Assembly (NCBI RefSeq): GCF_000003605.2
Contig: NW_003123418.1
Location: 254,225-275,772, forward strand
Source of the DNA: Saccoglossus kowalevskii
Taxonomy: Eukaryota > Hemichordata > Enteropneusta > Harrimaniidae
Reading direction: 5' to 3'
Length of the DNA: 21,548 bases
The position numbers were made by a program, and so were the translations under genes. The notes under the pieces are model-generated. The model saw only the letters and a program-made list of their open reading frames with translations, did not search any database and was not told where the DNA came from. How positions within the stretch are numbered: the first letter of the stretch is position 1; each line of letters opens with the position of its first letter. Positions 1-21,548 of this stretch are shown here, one piece after another.

Positions 1-200
1 TAACCTATGATTCATCAATAGATGTCCCTATCAATATCTTACCTATGATTCATCAAGAAAGGTCACTATCAATATCTTACCTATGATTCATCAATAGATG
101 TCACTATCAATATCTTACCTATGTTTCATCAATAGATGTCCCTATCAATATCTTACCTATGATTCATCAAGAGATGTCCCTATCAATATCTTACCTATGT
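1..200. repeat. 38-bp tandem array made of an exon-intron junction
   Basis: Core tacctatg (aacctatg in the leftmost) starts at 2, 40, 78, 116, 154 and 192, an exact 38-bp period. Units differ at a few positions (for example gattcatc or gtttcatc; aatagatg, aagaaagg or aagagatg). On the minus strand each unit reads (T)CATAG|gtaagatattg, the donor of gene A exon 8 plus up to ten exon bases and about 28 intron bases. The leftmost unit has gtta instead of gtaa. The array runs off the left edge. Confidence 0.9.
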
Positions 201-243
201 TTCAAGGTTTTTTTAATTTTTTCTCTGACTTCAGCTAAGTAGT
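195..243 (-). CDS. Gene A exon 8, with its donor at the edge of a tandem array
   Basis: 49 nt. AC completes Asp, then 15 codons (YLAEVREKIKKTLKH) plus AG. The acceptor is ctttgcctcaccag, the donor CATAG|gtaaga. The donor and the last ten exon bases are the first copy of the 38-bp junction repeat filling 1-200. If the donor is not used, translation reads one Arg codon and stops at the TAA inside gtaaga, so an intron-retained form would end here. Confidence 0.55.
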
Positions 244-3200
244 CTGGTGAGGCAAAGAATTAACCTAATATTAGTCATAAATTATTGATATATGCCCTGA
301 TCCCCAAATTGTCACATGCACTTCAGTGTTATTTCAAATGGTATATGCACATCAAGAATTGTTTCTTAAACAATGGCATATCTAAATTTCTAGAAGTATT
401 TATTTATCTTAGTAATATTATTTTCAGATATAATCATGGGTTCTTTGTGTATAATGCTTGTGTCTGAGAAATTCAGTGAACTATACTGGCAAGCCAGAAT
501 TGCATTTAGCATTTTAATGATGAGATGTGAAAATTGAGAGGCATTGACAATATATTCTGTGCATCTTTATTACTAATGGACCCCTTCTTTTACTAAAATA
601 GGGGTCCCTCTCTATTATTAAGGGTCTAAAAAGCAGAATATTAAGGCCTGCTGGCATGCTATCCAATAATGTTTTGAGAACACATAACACAAGCTTATAC
701 GATATGGATGTAATTTCAAACATTTTCTTGGTAAATTTAATATTATGAATCGATCAACTCAGAAGCAAAATTTAACTTGCAGAATGCAAATGAACATAGA
801 AAAAAAATAGTGCTTTTAACTATTTTCTTATTAACATAGTAAAGTATGATGACTTACCTCTTCCTGGAAACACACTTCCAATATCTACATGGGATTTTAG
901 TCTATTAGCAATATCTTCCATAGGTATATCCTTTTATAATAAAAAGGAAAAAACAAAACCCAATTATAGTCAATTATAGTGAAACATGTTTATTATTATG
1001 TATATAACCACCTTATATCATATACTCATTAGAATAAAGAATGAGGCTGGAAGAAGTGACAAATAAACATATTGGCAATATTCATGTCATCTGGCTAAAA
1101 TAACAAAATAACATTACTGTATTATAAACTCATGTGCTTACACAGAAATGACAGTGATGTATCGATGGTCAAAATATGTCATAACCTAATAATCTAATAC
1201 AACAATTACAACTTTTTTGTCTACATGCGCTTCTATTGGAGACACACAATACAGCAAATATGCTAATTGGCTATAATTTTCAGACTCATCTTTCAGAACT
1301 TAGAACTGCAGTGATATCAGTCACTATGAAATTCAGATTGCAATTAAAATTTCACATAACAAACATATTTAGATAAAGATTTTGAAAATGAGGAAATTAT
1401 TATTATAAACAAAATGCAGAAAAATATAACATGACTTACAAGCGGCATTTCCTGAGATAACTCTTTGGTCTCAATTTCCATTACAGCATCCATATCAGGA
1501 CAACTTTAAGGCAATGATATCTCAGTATTACAATTACCGGTACTTTGTTTTATTACAAGTTGGCATCTTGTCAATTTCTAGCAAAAGTACAACTACTACC
1601 GGACTCTGCTGTAAATTCACCCATCCGAAAAATCGTCCTGGGCGGTTTCACGGCTGATGGGCCCTTATTTGGGGTTCAACATTTCAAAAAAATGATCATT
1701 AAATAATTTTAAATGAAAAATCCGATTTTCAACGCCGACAGTTGGACTACTCAAAACGAAAGAAACTATTGCAGAAGCTAATCTAAAATTTTATACATTT
1801 TTTTCTCGCTGGAATAAAAAGTAGACCCTGCATCTTACAATTAATTTGTTTAATTTTTATTAGTAACGAAAGTATATTCTAAAAGAAGTTTAAAATAAAA
1901 ATGAACCCAACTGCATTGCTTAGTAGCAAATGATCGCAGTAGCGCAATTCACTCATGGTGCGTTTCACAATTGTTGATTATTACCTAGTAATGATTATAA
2001 TAACATGCAAAAAATAAATTCGTTGAATTGTTATGAAATGCAAATAAATTTCAACTTATTTCATCGTAATCGAATGATTCCGATCGCATTTTCAACGCTT
2101 GATGCTGTAGAAATGAATATCCGCCATGTTTTGACCTGGAATGGTGTTCTTTGACCTGACAGGTTAAATCTCTATTTAACCAATGAAAACAATGGATGAT
2201 ACCAAAGTGTTCAAATTACCATAGCCCTTTTAAATATGTTAATGTTATTGAACGCAGCATGGAAGAGATTTGTTGATGTTGTTGTACGATCTTTTTGTTT
2301 GGATTTTCATAGGAAAGCGGCATGATTTGTTTTTAAATAAAAAAATTAGTTGTTTTCAAAAGATAAACAGAGCATTTGAAGAATAATTTAACATTGTTCA
2401 CAGTGATAACAGCTCATTGTCGAAACGATGCTTACCCATTCATGCTAGTCGCAATAAACATCAATACTCTTGAATAGGCGTCAATGACTATGGTGAAACT
2501 TTTAGGCATCAGAAAAGATTAAAATAACACCTTAAAAAACTGCCAATAAATTGCCCTGGGCGATTTCTTAGTCCCATTTTATTTTTTTTTAAATCCAAAC
2601 TGCCATTTAATGGCCCACGGCAAATTTATGGCAGAATCCGGTACTATGATGTTATCAGTAATTTTAGTTTTTGCTCACTGCTAGTATTACAATTAATTTT
2701 TTTTTATTACAAGTTGGAATCTTGTCCATTCCTAGCAAAAGTACTACTACTACTATGATGTTACCAGTAATTTTAGGCTGTCGATTAAAATATATTTGCA
2801 TTTTAAATTTAAATTCGGCCATAAAATTAAAGCCACAATTTTGTTTGAATCAAAACAATGAATGAATGAATGAGTCAATAATAATATCCTCAAAAAAGTT
2901 TTCAAACTGCCCTGACATATTAACAAGTTGATTTAATTATACCTTGGTGGGTCCCTAATTTTGTTTTGCACTGGTGTAACTTTGGTACTACTTCTTAAAG
3001 GCTGCAATTCTTGTCCAGTTTCCTGCCATTCCATGTTTACCTCATGATCTTGGTTACCTGGTTCATTGTTCAACAAATCTAAACTTGCTACATTGTTGAG
3101 CCCAGCTTGAGATAAGTCAAGTATTTTCTTCATGTCATTGGCAACATGCTGATGAGATTTTTTGGATAGTGCTATTAAAAACACAGAAAGAATGTATGAG

Positions 3201-6200
3201 ATTATTGTTATGTTGTGTGGCTGTGAGTGTAGTTTACAATTTAACTCATCTTCTATAATAATAATAATAATTTATTGTTGTTTTGTTACTTAAAACAAAA
3301 ACCACATATACAGAAAAAATAATTAGTCAATATGTCCAAATAAATATTTTTGTATGTTGGTAAACATGCGTTGCATTTATTAATTCATTCCATCAGATTG
3401 CCTTGTGTATACTAGCTTGCAGATGAATTTTGTTATTCTATAGCAATTGTTATCATTAACTCGATACTTACAATCAGAAAGAAACAGGGGTGTTTCTGGA
3501 TATAGTAGAGTTACAAACTATTCACAAAATTACCAAAAACTATTCATTTGTTAACAAACAAAACAAGCAATCTGACGGTGCTTAAAGTGTAATTCTGTAA
3601 AATTACTATTTATCTGTCTTTTTTTTCTGACCATTTGAGACGGCCATGTGATAAAAAGCTTATCACCTCATATCACTCAATTATTGTATGGCTTGTCGAT
3701 ATACTTCTCAGTTTGTAGACATAAATACTAGCCCATATGCTGGCACTAATATCAACCAGCTCTTTAATTACCTCGAAGAATGGTTTCAGACTTTTTTCCT
3801 TTGCCATACATTCCAAGACCTCTCTGAAAATACAAAAACAAATATATCATTACCATCTAAACATGAGTATGCTTAGCAAGTTGACACATATATGTAAGTG
3901 TGTGTGTTTGTTTCATGAATCAACTGTTTACTCATCAGTATAATATAAATTAGAGTGAACACTGCCTAGACCTACATGTGGCATTAGAATGGTATATGTC
4001 CTATCAAATGGGGATGATAAAAGTATATGTTACATTGTGTATACACAGGCAAATGTCCATGGTATATTGGGTTAGAAGACTGCTCTAAGCCAAATTGTGA
4101 GCATATTCACCTGGTCTTGTAGGATTATTTCAGTCTTCATTTAAGTGTTGTATAGGACTGTCATTATTGCTATGATATACCGCTATGCCATATTCAATAG
4201 GCCAAAGAAAATTATTGTAACTAAAAACAAGCAGCCTCTCGGCTGAGATAGCTCCGCTGTTAGCAATGCACATTTTAATTAAAGAACTGAAGATATCATT
4301 AGAAAATGAACAATATGTATATTATGTATAGCAATCGAATTGTCGTTCGTGTCAATGTTTTACTTTTTCGACTTCTTCTTGAAAACTACAAGCCTGAATG
4401 CTTTGATACTTGGTGTGTATGTACCCGGGGTAGACCTCTCTTAGATTTGTTCATTTCATGATGATATCTTCAATTCTCTTATTTTGGTGAATATTTTTGT
4501 CATTTTTGGTAAAAAGTGATATTTTCGACTTCTTGTTAAAAACCAAAAGCCCAAGTGCTTTGATATTACATATATAGGTACTACATGTGGACCTCTCTCA
4601 GATTTGTTCATTTCGTGATGATATCTTAAATTCTCTAATTTTGATGAATATTTTTGGCATTTTTGGTAAAAAGTGATATTTTTGACTTCTTGTTAAAAAC
4701 CGCAAGTCCGATTGCTTTGATATTACATATATAGGTACTACATGTGGACCTCTGACAGATTTGTTCATTTTGTGATGATATCTTCAATTATCTAATTTTG
4801 ATGAATATTTATGTCACTTTTGGTGAAAAGTGATATTTTTGAAGTCCGATTGCTATACGTATTGTTCATTTTCTAATGATATCTTTAGTTCTTTAATTGA
4901 AATGTGCCTTGCTAACAGCGGATCTATCTCAGCCGAGAGGCTGCTTGTTTATTTAGCCCTAACAAAACTAAATGAGATGAATGGATGCCATAAACCATAT
5001 ATACATACTGTTAATCTGTTATGTGTGATAGCAGAAACTACATGTTTTGATGCTTCTTCTTCATCAACTCTCAACTGCTGTAAAATGTAAAACAAAATAT
5101 ATGACATATACAAAATATGTAAATTCAGTTGTAAATTAAAAAAAGGAGCATATTACACACACCATTTAAATTACTCTTTCAACTTTTTTTTACATGATAA
5201 GATACCTCCAGTTAGTCACTAGAATATCATAATTGAATATTTTATTTGAAATAATTATTAAAGGGCGGTAGTTGTCGCGCCACGCATGTGCGAGATATAT
5301 GGGTCTCATATAAACAAAGATGGCATTATTGAATGTTGCACAGATCAACGAGACAAGACAAACTGAGACATTACCAAGCTTTACTAAAGATTTTTTAGGT
5401 ATTTGGAAGGTATCGAAAGAGTCACAGACGATAATTAGTGCAAGTCGCGCCCAGGTCAAACCTCATACTTGTGATTTCCATAAGAAAAGCACATTGGATT
5501 GTCGCAACGACTGTTGCCCTTTAAGATATGTGCTTTTGATAGCATAACAAAGACTTGTATTTATTTTGTTCAAATATGATTGTATAGGCACAGAGGGGTG
5601 ACCTGTCAGTCAAGCTCAAAACTTTGACATTATGAACAAACTTTGGGGCACAATGGATAATAATAATTTGTATGAATAAAAAATATTCATTGATCTAATT
5701 GTAAATGTGGACAACACATTTCCCAGACATATAATCATGTTTTTTTGCACAAGTTTTTAATCAAATTAGATTGTTTTTATCGTGATCACCTTATTTTTAT
5801 TAAAATGAGACTTCAAGTTGAAAGCAAGTCTACATATTTTCATGGAGTATCCAAAGACACCAGCATTGCAGCTATTATATAAACATGCTGTGCAAATATT
5901 CACTATGTTTTTTATTACCGGTACTTATGAAAGTAGATTATGAATTATCATCCTTAGATGTTCAACAAAACATAAAACTGTTTGATGCTATTTCATCCAA
6001 GATCAAAATATTAAAAACAGTCATTAGCATGATGTAGCCGACCAAATGCAAATTAACATATGATCAACAAAAGTCGACCAGATAAACACAACTGTGACTG
6101 CATAGAGCCATGTTAGAAATTGTTATACCATAGATAGTATGTACTGTCTACAATTATACATATCCAGTCGTTCTGTGGCAAATCAACCTGGTTTTTTTCA

Positions 6201-9104
6201 ACAAGAACTTGCGAATACAATGTCACTGCTTGAAATGTTAGATTATGTAAATCTGCAAACACGTTCAGTCTATGAGATAAAAATTGCCCCGGAATGTTTT
6301 TTTCTCTTATGCATGACTGTCAATCATGTGTTTAATGTCACTGCATTGTTAGTAATGTTTGAAACAGATTTTATAACAAACTAGGTAACCAAAGCTTTTC
6401 AGCATCTGGAGGTATCTCGTCTCGGTAATCAAAGGATGAAAGGGGTATAAATAAAATAAAAAGATAAAAGTAAAATTACTCAATGATGTCCAAGTACATC
6501 ATAGTATTCAAACACTAAAGGTACCCAGTATTTTCCAAAATGTGTAGGACAATGTTGAAGCAAACAATGCACAAAAATTCATATAGTAACCTAAATTATT
6601 ATTATTATTATAACAGATGTTGCAAAGAATACATAAAGCTCAGCTAAACTATCATGTTCAGATTTTGCCACTAGGCAATGTGAGTGGCATATTCATAGAC
6701 GAATAAGCTCTCCTGAACTTATTACCCCATATGTTAGAGCCAAAATGTTGACTTACCATAGATACATCTTGAGCTCTATTTAAATGCCTTCTGAATTCAG
6801 GTTTTAAAGTTGGATCTGCTGATTGCTGTGAAAAAATAAATACAAATAAATATTTTGGATACCCAAGCACATATTGAACAACTGAATGTGAACAAGTACA
6901 TATGAAAACATGGTACAACTAATGAAGATCAGCAGAAAAACAAAATAAAAAACAACACTGTCGCTGAAACCATACAAATGTTGATATTTAAGTCTTGAGT
7001 AAGTGGGGCCATCACACCACATACACCTGGTTGGGAAAAGAAAATGTGCGATATGTTAAATAAACCGACTGCCTCAAGATCTAAGAAATGCATGTGAGAA
7101 AATGAAATATCCCAAAACAAGCAATTTCAATAAAATTAACAAGGAAGAGTCTAGAAATGCAACAAGAGATTAAGATCAAGGGAATTTTGTGTTCAAGAAT
7201 CGTCAAATCAACTAAAGTTACAGTTTACGGCTCACTAAATATTGCAACATAATTCAGTTGTCACAAAAAAGGAACCATGGAACAGTCATTTTATAACAAT
7301 GGAATTTTTGTCCATACATTGTTGGCAAATTCAACGAGGAAAGAAAAGCGTTTCAAATTAGTTTCCAAATCACCTAAAATTATCATAAATACACACAGAA
7401 AAATACTATAAATTCATCGAACCGGTATTTTGTTCTAAAACGAAGATTTGGGGGTTGTAATTTCTCTCATTTTTTCGTACTTGGCACTCACACAACAACA
7501 GTGAAAACGATAACTGGCGATTCTTGATTCTGAAGATTATTACAATTACAATTACAAAGAGTACTTAGTCGAGTTGTTATAAATTTCTTTGTTGAACTAT
7601 GGCACTAAAACCTGAATACTCTATTGAAAACAATCTGCATTTTTTAAAATTCATGAGGGATATACAACATCAATGCTAAGATAGATTCGAAATGGGCAAT
7701 GATGCCAATAGAGGGTGTATACAGGGAAATACACAAACAACTCTAAGGCATTAGGTGAATTAACACCTTTCAACAAAAGCGTTCTTTAACCGTCTTTTTT
7801 AGTAACTGCGTGCATACACCAGTTATACACTGAACTAATGCCAGACAATCTCTATATGCTATGTCTATATATGCTATGGCAAAATGTAAAACATATATCC
7901 AGATTATAGTGCATTATGAGATAGTTATGTCAGATTGCGACAGCAGAAACGTTTTAGGATTGGCAGGGTTATGTTTGATTTGGTCATATCCCACAATACA
8001 CTATAATTTGGAATTCAATATGGTCTATCACTGCCAGTCAACCATCTTGGATTGTATTGTGACACAGATCAACTGTTGTTGATATGCTAGAACGCAATTT
8101 TCTGTGAACCAAGTTTCGACCTAATCATGGGCAGCTTAAAACGGGAGGGTTGTCACCTGCGCACGTGCGGGAATTGAGTCCCAAGTGATAATAACAACAC
8201 ACACTAAAAATGCAAAGGATCATGGGTAGTCGCTTGTTTGTAAACAATGACACGCTATGGCCATCTGACGCATGCGCAGGTGACGAGTCCCCCGCTTTAA
8301 ATTTGAGTTATAAGCAGAAATATGCAAAAAAACATAATGGCTGACAGTTGATCATCTTGGATTGGATTGTAACAACTAGAAACAATTGCCATTGATTTGT
8401 AGTTGCTTGTAGTTTTCATATATAAACATGTAATCTAGTGCATGAAGGTTAATATGAAAATGTGAAAAGGTATCAATACACGTAAACATGTTAGGGACAA
8501 CATCAAAAGTTCAATGTAGGATAACAAACTTAATTCTTTAGTCCCCCCCCCCCCTCCCACTGAAACTTAATTAATAAATATTGACCATGGCGTCAGACTA
8601 CATTCACCATTAAATACAAATTGATAATCGGACTGTAGTATGGCATAGCAGTTGGTTGTCAAGTGGTTGTAAAAAGACTTTACACTCGGACCAAATCATT
8701 TTCTCGTCTTGGATGTTTTTCTTTCATTTTCTGTTTTTTTTGTCCATGGTCGGATAGAAAAAAAACGAGCTACAAATACTCAAAGATTTTTTTGACTTCA
8801 TTAAAAAATAAAATCGTTTTTGTAGGATGGAAACTTTTTGAGGTCAAAACCCCCACCCCCAAACTAAAGCAAATAAGTTTTTTTATTCGACATCGATCTT
8901 TTGACATTGTCCCTTAGACAGTGTAACAAGTACGTTGACTGACAATTTTAAATCCATTTATATATATATACATCATACCTTCAATTCTTTTTTATTTTGA
9001 TGATGGGCTTTCATTTTGTCTCTTTCTGATCTAGATTTTCTTTTCTTCCTCCTTCTTGTTGAATGCTTTGTCTTCTCTTTCTTTTGATCACTGTCACTTT
9101 CCAT
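195..9104 (-). CDS. Gene A: eight-exon gene for an unidentified basic protein (3' end beyond window)
   Basis: Joined coding exons, in transcript order: 8979-9104, 6757-6825, 5009-5077, 3772-3823, 2943-3171, 1440-1503, 858-930, 195-243. They give 243 codons plus 2 nt with no stop, and the split codons at all seven junctions agree in phase. Six donors start gta (three are gtaagt or gtaaga) and acceptors are mostly cag or aag. Residues 7-30 are dense in Lys/Arg (for example TRRRKKRKSRSERDK), which suggests a nuclear or nucleic-acid-binding protein; this is inference. Residues 89-125 are Gly/Lys-rich then helical in character (GLGMYGKGKKSE, SKKSHQHVANDMKK). The middle (about 140-182) is polar and probably disordered, and the C-terminal part again looks helical (DYLAEVREKIKKTL). 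No transmembrane segment or signal peptide is visible. I do not recognise the family. The gene continues left of the window. The promoter is probably at 9860-9960. The phase agreement is the main support; exact boundaries need RNA data. Confidence 0.62.
244..857. other. Gene A intron 7
   Basis: 614 bp, AT-rich, no gene or repeat seen. The minus-strand open frame at 514-723 lacks good splice sites matching the exon 7 phase and is left out. Confidence 0.5.
858..930 (-). CDS. Gene A exon 7
   Basis: 73 nt, 24 codons plus 1 nt. It has a consensus donor (GAG|gtaagt) and acceptor ccttttttattataaaag. It encodes DIPMEDIANRLKSHVDIGSV and FPGR. The last G joins AC of exon 8 to make Asp. Confidence 0.62.
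931..1439. other. Gene A intron 6
   Basis: 509 bp, AT-rich; I see nothing beyond the splice signals. Confidence 0.5.
1440..1503 (-). CDS. Gene A exon 6
   Basis: 64 nt. T completes a split Ser codon, then 21 codons (CPDMDAVMEIETKELSQEMP and L). The donor is CTT|gtaagt (strong) and the acceptor attgccttaaag (weak pyrimidine tract). Acidic composition. Confidence 0.55.
1524..2776. repeat. Local ~95-bp direct duplication, one copy interrupted by a transposon
   Basis: The left copy (1524-1598 plus 2644-2667) and right copy (2683-2776) share agtattacaatta, ttattacaagttgg, atcttgtc, ctagcaaaagtac, ctatgatgtta and cagtaattttag in the same order. The right copy is uninterrupted; the left holds the element at 1599-2641. 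Both lie in gene A intron 5. Confidence 0.8.
1599..2641. mobile_element. 1043-bp non-autonomous DNA transposon with TA target duplication
   Basis: Imperfect terminal inverted repeats of about 20-26 bp begin CCGGACTCTGCTGTAAATT on the left and, reading inward on the other strand, CCGGATTCTGCCATAAATT on the right. TA flanks both ends (1597-1598 and 2642-2643). The paralogous empty site at 2683-2776 contains one TA where the element would be, differing by one substitution over 26 bp around the junction. TA duplication points to the Tc1/mariner-type superfamily group by established knowledge; family unassigned. The interior is AT-rich with no open frame long enough for a transposase. Confidence 0.75.
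2857..2876. repeat. Short (AATG)n microsatellite
   Basis: About four AATG units in gene A intron 5. Confidence 0.7.
2943..3171 (-). CDS. Gene A exon 5 (largest exon)
   Basis: 229 nt, open throughout in the frame set by its neighbours. The acceptor is gtgtttttaatag and the donor CCAAG|gtataa. It begins (A)LSKKSHQHVANDMKKILDLS and continues into a polar Asn/Glu/Gln-rich stretch ending KIRDPP. The final AG joins T of exon 6 to make Ser. The minus-strand open frame here (2933-3184) is slightly longer than the exon. Confidence 0.68.
3172..3771. other. Gene A intron 4
   Basis: 600 bp. It contains an (AAT)n microsatellite at about 3254-3272; otherwise AT-rich with nothing recognised. The + strand open frames at 3688-3943 overlap exon 4 on the opposite strand and are not called. 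Confidence 0.5.
3772..3823 (-). CDS. Gene A exon 4
   Basis: 52 nt, 17 codons plus 1 nt. The acceptor is tttgtattttcag and the donor CGAG|gtaatt. It encodes RGLGMYGKGKKSETILR, and its last G joins CA of the next exon to make Ala. This Gly/Lys-rich segment looks the most family-specific and would be the best search query. Confidence 0.6.
4221..4956. mobile_element. Fold-back element with three 157-bp core repeats
   Basis: Inverted arms of about 112-118 bp (4221-4338 and 4845-4956) are roughly 90% identical by eye and start ACAAGCAGCCTCTCGGCTGA from each side. Between them are three direct repeats of exactly 157 bp (4369-4525, 4526-4682, 4683-4839) and a short remnant at 4840-4855. No protein is encoded; the + frame at 4830-5090 is a shadow. 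Non-autonomous elements with tandem cores are known from bivalves and other invertebrates, but I cannot place this one. It lies inside gene A intron 3 (3824-5008). Confidence 0.85.
4369..4839. repeat. Three tandem 157-bp units
   Basis: Each unit runs through cgacttcttgttaaaaac, gctttgata, tgtggacctctc, agatttgttcattt, gtgatgatatctt and ttttggtaaaaagtgatatt. Units 2 and 3 are closer to each other than to unit 1. The period is identical between copies with no indel. Confidence 0.88.
5009..5077 (-). CDS. Gene A exon 3
   Basis: 69 nt, 23 codons, phase 0 at both ends. The acceptor is ttgttttacattttacag and the donor ACA|gtatgt. It encodes QLRVDEEEASKHVVSAITHN and then RLT, an acidic-then-helical stretch. 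It starts only 52 bp beyond the fold-back element at 4221-4956. The + strand ORF across it is a shadow. Confidence 0.62.
5078..6756. other. Gene A intron 2
   Basis: 1679 bp. It contains the MITE at 5262-5520 and an (ATT)n microsatellite at about 6594-6611. The + open frame at 6139-6384 (81 codons) has no recognisable content. A 24-nt phase-0 microexon at 6382-6405 (minus) was considered but its donor is poor. Confidence 0.45.
5262..5520. mobile_element. TTAA-inserted MITE, copy 1 (259 bp)
   Basis: Flanked by TTAA at 5258-5261 and 5521-5524. Imperfect terminal inverted repeats AGGGCGGTAGTTGTCGCG and, on the other strand at the right end, AGGGCAACAGTCGTTGCGA. The subterminal cacgcatgtgcgaga and gggtctc occupy the same positions as cgcacgtgcggga and gagtccc in the 8140 copy, so I group them, with more divergence. 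TTAA duplication is characteristic of piggyBac-type transposition, but the termini are not the usual CCC type. Open frames here (5190-5459 minus, 5320-5547 plus) are not genes. Confidence 0.65.
6757..6825 (-). CDS. Gene A exon 2
   Basis: 69 nt, 23 codons, phase 0 at both ends. It has a strong acceptor (ttattttttcacag) and a consensus donor (ATG|gtaagt). It encodes QSADPTLKPEFRRHLNRAQD and three more residues (VSM). Confidence 0.65.
8140..8296. mobile_element. TTAA-inserted MITE, copy 2 (157 bp)
   Basis: TTAA at 8136-8139 and 8297-8300. Inverted ends are AACGGGAGGGTTGTCACC on the left and, on the opposite strand at the right, AGCGGGGGACTCGTCACC. The interior (caaagg.tcatgggtag, gcttgtttgtaaacaatgac, acgctatgg) matches copy 3 closely. 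Both ends carry NRF1-like GC palindromes (gcgcacgtgcg, gacgcatgcgcagg). Too short to encode a protein. Confidence 0.82.
8543..8554. repeat. C12 homopolymer
   Basis: Twelve C in a row, followed by tccc. A length error from sequencing is possible. Confidence 0.9.
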
Positions 9105-13161: not shown

Positions 13162-14058
13162 CTAAAAACAAACAAAACTAAACAAATTAGGCCTGAGGGA
13201 CTGTCGACAGTCTATGATTACACTCTCCACACAAGAACAGTATAATCACGATACCGATGTTTTAATGGTTCAGAACTCGGAGTTATGCTGCTTTAAACAA
13301 ATATAAGAAGAAGTACACACTTTAATGATAAACGGAATAATTTAATGTTAAGTATAACTACCATAACCTAAACAAAATACAAAAGTTCTGCTACATCTAC
13401 AGTCTATTATAACTGTTCTCTATATTCGCTTAAAGCGGGAGGGTCGTCACCTGCGAACGCGCGAGAATTGAGTCCTAAGCGACGATAACACACGCTAATA
13501 ACGCAAAGGCTCATGGGTAGACGCTTGTTTGTAAACAATGACACGCTATGGATATCTGACGCATGCGATGACTCCCCGCTTTAAATTAAACCTTACAAAT
13601 TATTCTAGCATAGCAAAATTATTTCTGAAATATAAATATAGTGCTTCTTTTTCTTCTTTTTTTAACACAATAAATAATATAAAAATTACTACTGGCGTAC
13701 TAATGATGAAGGAGTTAACTAGGCCTACTTGGACAATAAACACCCACTCATACCCCTCCTTTCAATAGATGAAATCTGCCAGGATAATAATAATTTGTTG
13801 TAATCTATGCAGCAATGATATTTTGCGATCGTCTAATGCAATCAGTTTATTACTCATTCCTTATGTAATCTTCCTCCGGCATGCTTCGAATCCTAAACTA
13901 TTTAAAACCGACTAACCAATTCAGAGAAATCCAATCGAATAGCTGGCGTTGCTCGCCGTAATCTACGTTTTACTCGTCTCAAACTCAAATATTGCACGAA
14001 TGTACCGCATTACAGATAATCATAGATTATTAATATCAGTTCAATGACCCCTTTTTAC
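13162..14058. other. Putative intron holding a MITE
   Basis: Contains the TTAA MITE at 13434-13580. Around 13870-13990 a less AT-rich patch carries an ATTGG/CCAAT motif but no clear promoter. The + open frame at 13538-13768 overlaps the MITE and is not a gene. Confidence 0.35.
13434..13580. mobile_element. TTAA-inserted MITE, copy 3 (147 bp)
   Basis: TTAA at 13430-13433 and 13581-13584. Its left end is AGCGGGAGGGTCGTCACCTG and its right end (other strand) AGCGGGGAGTCATCGCATGC. It closely matches copy 2 across the interior but lacks about 10 bp near the right end (caggtgacg region). No coding capacity. Confidence 0.83.
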
Positions 14059-16099: not shown

Positions 16100-17095
16100 C
16101 TAAACGTTCAAATTATCTGTATGCATTTCTAAAGCAGTGCCAGTGCCAGTGCCAGTCCCCTCTGCTGGCATGCTCGGTTTTTGACAACGAAACGCAATAG
16201 AAATATTATCACGGAATTGATGATACTGAAATGCGTAAATAAATGGGTTTACACAAAGATTACAGAAAACAAGTACCACTGAGAAGAAATAAAAATCACT
16301 AGAAAAATCTAAATATCCACCCATATTGAAGTGGAATAAAGCAATTTGATTTGGTCCCCAAAAGAGGGCGTAAGTTATAGAAACAATTAGAAGCGTCTTG
16401 ACCACGTTCTTCTGTGCTTTACGGAAGCTGTGATTGGATGACTGGTTATTGGCGTTGTCACTTGGATTTAATTTGTTACCACTTAGCTTCTTGATAATTT
16501 GAACGTAACACAGGGCCATTAACATCAGTGGGAAGAACCACGATATACTGAAAAACGCGATGCCGACAAAAACGTTGAACTGTATACTGATGTATTTGAT
16601 AACGCAGGCCTCTTTACTGTGGTAAAATGGTAGCCCCCAAAGCAACTCGATGGGAAAACCATATGACCAAACAAGAATGATAATTATCTTTGCCGTTCTC
16701 TTGTTAAACTTATTGCGATGAAATATAGGATGACAAATGGCGAAGTAACGCTCTAACGTAACTACGCATAAGTTGGCAGTGGAGGCAAGAAACAACGACC
16801 ACATCAGGTACTCCGAATACCAGAATTTGCAGAACAGACTTCCCAAGATGCCTTTCGAAGGTAACTTAATTGAGCCCATTTTCATGATGAGAAAGATAAA
16901 GGAGCTTGTCATGTCGATTGCAGACTGGTTGATGATGAATAAATTAGTCATGTTTCGCAATCGACGTGTACGACAGAATACGTAACAAACAAACATATTT
17001 CCCAGAAGGCCAACGGATCCAACGATTGCATAAAGGATGGCCATTTTATGTTCAGAGTTGGTTACCACTACATTGACAGTTTGGTTGCTTGTCAT
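16100..17095 (-). CDS. Orphan rhodopsin-class (class A) G protein-coupled receptor
   Basis: 331 residues in one exon, a plasma-membrane receptor that would signal through heterotrimeric G proteins. Seven hydrophobic segments lie at about 19-41, 49-72, 87-113, 137-158, 172-202, 230-256 and 266-290. Class A landmarks are present: GN33 in TM1, NQSAID with D61 in TM2, C89 before TM3 and C164 in loop 2 (the usual disulfide), ERY 115-117 (DRY motif), W143 in TM4, P189 and Y197 in TM5, FWGP 245-248 in TM6, NPFIY 283-287 in TM7, and a helix 8 with FR. N4 (NQT) is a glycosylation site in a short N-terminus, typical of peptide- or amine-type receptors. C304 may be palmitoylated. The start has A at -3, and an upstream in-frame TGA supports it; M18 would fall at the TM1 edge. 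Subfamily and ligand cannot be assigned by eye. Confidence 0.93.
   Translation of the reverse strand: MTSNQTVNVVVTNSEHKMAILYAIVGSVGLLGNMFVCYVFCRTRRLRNMTNLFIINQSAIDMTSSFIFLIMKMGSIKLPSKGILGSLFCKFWYSEYLMWSLFLASTANLCVVTLERYFAICHPIFHRNKFNKRTAKIIIILVWSYGFPIELLWGLPFYHSKEACVIKYISIQFNVFVGIAFFSISWFFPLMLMALCYVQIIKKLSGNKLNPSDNANNQSSNHSFRKAQKNVVKTLLIVSITYALFWGPNQIALFHFNMGGYLDFSSDFYFFSVVLVFCNLCVNPFIYAFQYHQFRDNISIAFRCQKPSMPAEGTGTGTGTALEMHTDNLNV
16135..16158. repeat. Hexanucleotide repeat inside the receptor tail
   Basis: Four cagtgc-type units (the last cagtcc) encode alternating Gly-Thr at residues 313-320 of the receptor. Whole-codon length changes would be tolerated, so the tail may be polymorphic. Confidence 0.85.
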
Positions 17096-21055: not shown

Positions 21056-21126
21056 TCATGGAGGCATTTTATTTATATAGTCGTCAATAGTTTTTTGCTA
21101 ATAACGATTTATAGATCATACCACAT

Positions 21127-21548
21127 AGTACTGATATATAAACCATTACATATATATATCAGTATATCACTCCTGTATTGGGTAATGTCAGTGATTAGTA
21201 GTACTGATATATAAACCATTACATCATATATATATCAGTATATCACTCCTGTATTGGGTAATGTCAGTGACTAGTAGTACTGATATATATAAACCATTAC
21301 ATCATACCAGTATATCACTCCTGTATTGGGTAATGTCAGTGACTAGTAGTACTTGATATATAAACCATTACATCATACCAGTATATCACTCCTGTATTGG
21401 GTAATGTCAGTGACTAGTAGTACTGATATATAAACCATTACATCATACCAGTATATCACTCCTGTATTGGGTAATATTAGTGACTAGTAGTACTGATATA
21501 TAAACCATTACATCATATATATCAGTATATCACTCCTGTATTGGGTAA
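21127..21548. repeat. Tandem array of 70-76-bp units with internal inverted repeats
   Basis: Unit starts (agtactgata) are at 21127, 21200, 21276, 21348, 21419 and 21489, giving lengths 73, 76, 72, 71, 70 and a last unit cut by the window end. Each contains aaaccattaca, tatatcactcctgtattggg and taat.ttagtga or taatgtcagtga. Length differences come mainly from the (AT)n beside the inverted pair tactgatata / tatatcagta, which is full in units 1, 2 and 6 and eroded to catacca in units 3-5. Confidence 0.92.

Follow-up and report, generated by a model that had tools for sequence, protein, structure and literature searches.

Does a row of identical splice donors at the end of an exon act on splicing, or is it an ordinary minisatellite laid across a splice boundary? 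This question is raised by the first bases of the window, by which we mean the whole stretch of DNA that was analysed (21,548 nt, GC content 33.7%). This AT-rich stretch has the look of animal DNA, to judge from its split gene, its class-A receptor gene in a single open frame and its inverted-repeat elements. A preliminary description had read the site CATAG|gtaaga, repeated there in a 38-bp array, as the minus-strand donor of exon 8 of a gene (gene A) together with its copies. We give an even chance to the reading in which the array is a minisatellite across the splice boundary, with the first donor mainly used and the distal copies redundant or acting as decoys. The array is likely to be an unremarkable repeat that affects splicing only slightly. 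The features are listed in Table 1, where D1 to D5 denote the donor copies in the order in which they follow the exon.

Table 1. Coordinates of the array, its donor copies and the gene A model in the window.
Feature	Coordinates	Strand	Basis
Minisatellite, 38-bp units, 5.3 copies, reaching the window edge	3-204	minus	TRF, repeat-family search, unit alignment
Donor D1, CATAG|gtaaga, GT 194-193, the one donor of the five to leave the frame open	189-199	minus	unit alignment, donor scoring, frame check
Donor copy D2, GT 156-155; Arg-stop, stop 34 nt before the junction	151-161	minus	unit alignment, frame check
Donor copy D3, GT 118-117; Arg-stop, stop 72 nt before the junction	113-123	minus	unit alignment, frame check
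Donor copy D4, GT 80-79; Arg-stop, stop 110 nt before the junction	75-85	minus	unit alignment, frame check
Donor copy D5, GT 42-41; Arg-stop, stop 148 nt before the junction	37-47	minus	unit alignment, frame check
Sixth unit, altered and cut off by the window edge, CATAG|gtta, too short to score	1-9	minus	unit alignment
Putative exon 8 (gene A), 49 nt, entered in phase 1 and left in phase 2	195-243	minus	phase-consistent chain and acceptor ttaattctttgcctcaccag
Putative exons 1-7 of gene A (8979-9104, 6757-6825, 5042-5077, 3772-3823, 2943-3171, 1440-1503, 858-930)	858-9104	minus	phase-consistent chain

Extent and Units of the Array

The window was searched with TRF, which placed the array at 3-204 with a period of 38, 5.3 copies, 92% matches and no indels. 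In unit size and arrangement it fits a minisatellite or VNTR, a class with head-to-tail units of ~10-100 bp in several copies whose number differs between individuals. The copies were counted within the window, and since the array touches its first bases, their number may be a lower bound. At a lag of 38, 152 of 164 positions in the array were identical, compared to no more than 65 of 164 in any stretch that begins past base 300. A 19-mer across the donor was then matched with up to three mismatches allowed; it was found five times in the window, each time exactly. In 100 dinucleotide shuffles, the same search averaged 0.03 matches, and none of the shuffles reached five. A chance origin of the repeated donor is excluded, because the lag-38 identity lies far above that of the rest of the window and no shuffle equalled the observed count. 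No other copies of the 38-bp unit were found in the window, either by a repeat search (12-base seeds, 25-base minimum) or by the 19-mer at up to three mismatches.

The repeated site was as had been described. On its minus strand, the window has five matches to CATAGGTAAGA, all of them inside the array, and on its plus strand it has none. The five array donors CATAG|gtaaga are identical, and the first G of their GT lies at plus-strand coordinates 194, 156, 118, 80, and 42. The earlier count of "up to six" donors holds for these five intact sites, while the sixth unit, which begins at 4, reads GTTA with the change at donor position +3 and is truncated by the window edge. The array thus has the form of a multi-donor minisatellite, in which units share a common 5' splice site, by virtue of the five identical donors; the truncated sixth differs. 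The score of the array donor was 4.8, and 18 of the 2458 GT sites of the window score as high or higher, the five array copies included, on vertebrate frequencies.

Each unit consists of the last 10 bases of putative exon 8 and 28 intron bases. The inclusion of ten exon bases, which had also been claimed, was borne out at 195-204 (TGAAACATAG), which belong to both the exon and the array. An origin by duplication across the exon-intron boundary is plausible: a segment made up of the 10 terminal bases of exon 8 and the 28 opening bases of the next intron would have been tandemly duplicated in a minus-strand, animal-like gene, and the donor, being inside the duplicated segment, would have been copied as a passenger. 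The order could also be the reverse, with the exon end moved into a pre-existing array.

The array could instead owe its copy number or its edge unit to misassembly, a reading that we consider highly improbable. It is favored by the position of the array at the first bases of the window and by the tandem array at the opposite end (21126-21548), as if the contig broke at both. However, on the minus strand any two of the five full units differ at 1-5 of their 38 positions, and the assembler therefore did not simply copy a single unit; the junction on the exon side is internal to the window.

Gene A and Putative Exon 8

The gene A model comprises eight minus-strand exons with consistent phases, which give 698 nt and 232 residues free of stops. 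The placement of the array at the donor of exon 8 was supported in part. The phase of this exon fits those of the seven upstream exons, and its acceptor is rich in pyrimidines (0.75 at -20 to -5, compared to 0.56-0.81 in the six other acceptors of gene A), but the protein has no relative in the Pfam, PDB, viral, or prokaryotic collections. Exon 8 is open in the frame set by its entry phase, and its other two frames hold stops. An open frame in this phase is also found in 39% of the window's minus-strand stretches of 49 nt, so it lends the exon only moderate support. The sole other GT within exon 8 scores -1.0 compared to 4.8 for the array donors. Exons 3 and 5 have weak donors, with scores of -1.7 and -1.3 that 394 and 328 of the 2458 GT sites equal or exceed (all on the same vertebrate frequencies), and the gene model may therefore be wrong in places. 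In the reading preferred here, exon 8 would be a genuine internal exon.

The gene A protein matched no Pfam family up to E = 10. In the PDB, searched up to the same value, there was no significant match, and the only row was the ribosomal protein bL32 (E = 0.21). This match covered the basic N-terminal part and was judged to be due to chance, and bL32 was rejected as a relative. Pattern searches gave 10 stretches in the viral collection and 92 in the prokaryotic collection, and none in either was confirmed by tblastn. As these two collections hold only viruses and prokaryotes, the lack of relatives in them is uninformative for animals.

These results have to be weighed against the possibility that exon 8 is terminal, with a protein ending in KTLKHR-stop, or is no exon, and that the array is a plain minisatellite of a 3' UTR or intron, with AGGTAAGA present in the unit by chance. 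We regard this as rather unlikely. A terminal exon 8 is nevertheless a serious rival because there is an in-frame TAA directly past D1, and the unspliced exon would yield the same Arg-stop as the distal donors. The exon has no homologue in the Pfam, PDB, viral, and prokaryotic collections, and its open frame is hardly telling at a chance level of 39%. The three largest tandem arrays together make up ~4.8% of the window, so by our estimate it would be no great surprise for an array to meet one of the model's 15 exon ends; in our judgement, such an overlap needs no special cause. Against this reading stands the array donor, one of the 18 top-scoring sites among 2458 (five array copies included), at the end of an exon in the right phase. 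Against a terminal exon, 12 poly(A) hexamers were sought on the minus strand of 1-260, and only ATTAAA was found (start 217), upstream of the stop. This absence weighs only weakly, because the window ends 190 bases past the stop.

Consequences of Donor Choice

The preliminary description had held that the use of any distal donor would truncate the protein, and the frame check agreed. The unit of 38 bp is not a multiple of 3, and D2 to D5 add 38, 76, 114, and 152 nt to the exon; with each of the four, AGG TAA (Arg-stop) follows in the entry frame of exon 8. In mammals, transcripts are subject to decay when the stop lies more than 50-55 nt before a junction. If decay of the mammalian type holds here, transcripts from D2 (34 nt) would escape, and those from D3-D5 (72-148 nt) would be targeted.

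In the minisatellite reading that we prefer, D1 at 194 would give the coding transcript, and the others are expected to be in minor use. There are five U1 sites, equal by sequence, within ~155 nt of the end of exon 8. The distal copies match D1 in their fit to U1, and they would mainly be redundant or decoy sites. The rare use of a distal donor would lead to the Arg-stop and to a truncated or decayed transcript. The extra donors could also aid the definition of the short 49-nt exon. According to PMC8724738, a 5' splice site downstream of an exon helps to bring U2AF and U2 snRNP to the 3' splice site upstream of it, and for this reason additional donor copies could help to define exon 8.

A stronger role was also considered, in which the copies form a functional ladder of competing donors and their number tunes the share of productive transcripts. 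The five donors are identical, the four past the first are unproductive, and the stops of D3-D5, though not that of D2, lie beyond the mammalian decay limit. Several repeat donors of human IFI6 are also used according to PMC4526556. However, the donors carry no sign of constraint. The full units have five variable columns, none of which falls in the 11-column donor core, and such a distribution arises by chance with p = 0.16 in a comparison made post hoc. The conservation of the core was rejected as evidence of selection preserving the donors on this value and on the change at +3 in the truncated sixth unit. A structure that could regulate access to the donors was likewise not seen: the fold of the exon plus array RNA had z = +0.94 compared to shuffles, 159 of 200 of which were equally or more stable. 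We consider a functional ladder improbable on these grounds. A regulatory RNA structure was rejected as well, as there were no Rfam matches at gathering thresholds across the window and the fold was no better than that of shuffles.

Possible Splicing Within the Array

Most animal introns are longer than 38 nt. Stretches of 76, 114, or 152 nt of the array could be removed by nested or recursive splicing as small introns that restore AG|GT, and the array would then be an intermediate of intron gain of the Rogers type. Every unit carries AG|GT, at spacings of 38, 76, 114, and 152 nt that reach distances an intron could span. A branch-like motif, TTGAT, occurs ten times in 1-194, twice per 38-bp unit, so that donor, branch-like and acceptor-like signals are all present in every unit. 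Counted on the aligned units, the A of one motif precedes the G of the unit's AG by 26 nt and that of the other by 10 nt. However, YTNAY is a loose motif, and the 38-nt spacing is below the length of most animal introns. The pyrimidine fraction before the five unit AGs (0.50-0.69) is under that of six of the seven acceptors of gene A (0.75-0.81), but it is not consistently below that of the exon 6 acceptor (0.56), so that the ranges overlap at the low end. Among all 2017 AGs of the window, 58.5% reach a pyrimidine fraction of 0.5 and 10.6% reach 0.69. PMC4974935 and PMC3629103 describe introns gained from tandem units that contain a proto-splice site. On this evidence, nested splicing is very unlikely. 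Still less credible is a series of proto-introns, in which each unit would serve as donor and acceptor, the boundary of exon 8 would move and might ratchet recursively, and the length of the allele would set the productive fraction.

Comparison With Known Systems

Tandem alternative 5' splice sites, of the GYNGYN type and wider, are mostly pairs a few bases apart. The array shares with them the presence of several donors at one exon end, whereas they involve no minisatellite. The closer likeness is to human IFI6, where tandem repeat units each carry a 5' splice site and the donors stand in series. The human unit is 12 bp, compared to 38 bp here, and the extra donors here all lead to a stop. 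For a minisatellite with multiple splice donors in IFI6 (also G1P3 or 6-16), PMC2572611 and PMC2915984 cite Turri, Cuin and Porter (1995). According to PMC4526556, splicing there uses two downstream repeat units as donors, with three mRNA species as the outcome. The use of downstream donors is thus reported for IFI6, while in the present array it is hypothetical.

The array also resembles the fission yeast genes SPOG_01682/SOCG_00815, in which 24-nt tandem units were linked to intron gain under the Rogers model (PMC3629103, PMC4974935). The proto-splice site of these units is given as AGGC in PMC3629103 and as AGGT in the later PMC4974935, and the authors of the former call for further study of one of the two introns. 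Both cases have several tandem units with an internal proto-splice site, in or beside an intron. In Rogers-type gain, however, the repeats derive from exon sequence and give rise to the intron itself, whereas here an existing boundary has seemingly been multiplied, and the 38-nt unit is not a multiple of a codon. The kind of arrangement is already known, and the present array would be a further, putative member.

The array may be of use beyond this gene. Identical 5' splice sites have been placed in a row in laboratory constructs in order to find out which of them wins. If its donors are used, the array is a natural version of such constructs and one more tandem repeat that alters an exon boundary; if D1 alone is used, it is an ordinary minisatellite. 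The duplication holds the donor sequence and its near context constant, and length alleles, should there be any, might reveal how many U1 sites are usable per exon.

Other Features of the Window

The opposite end of the window is occupied by a 70-bp tandem array (21126-21548, 5.8 copies by TRF), which runs up to the last base. The presence of tandem arrays at both ends suggests that the contig was broken at repeats and that the window may be a whole contig.

An inverted-repeat element (4225-4950), with 97-nt arms that are 95% complementary, lies in the gene A model between putative exons 3 and 4. Inside it is a tandem array of 157-bp units (4433-4839, 2.6 copies), and the element resembles a non-autonomous DNA transposon that carries a satellite. 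The segments 8136-8300 and 13430-13567 are related, with 91% identity over 81 nt, and the first has 28-nt inverted ends; they are perhaps copies of a short mobile element.

The minus strand of 16100-17095 encodes a class-A G-protein-coupled receptor in one open frame (Pfam 7tm_1, E 2.6e-40). Among the best 60 of 122 matches, the nearest solved structures are those of amine and peptide receptors (best E 1.8e-20).
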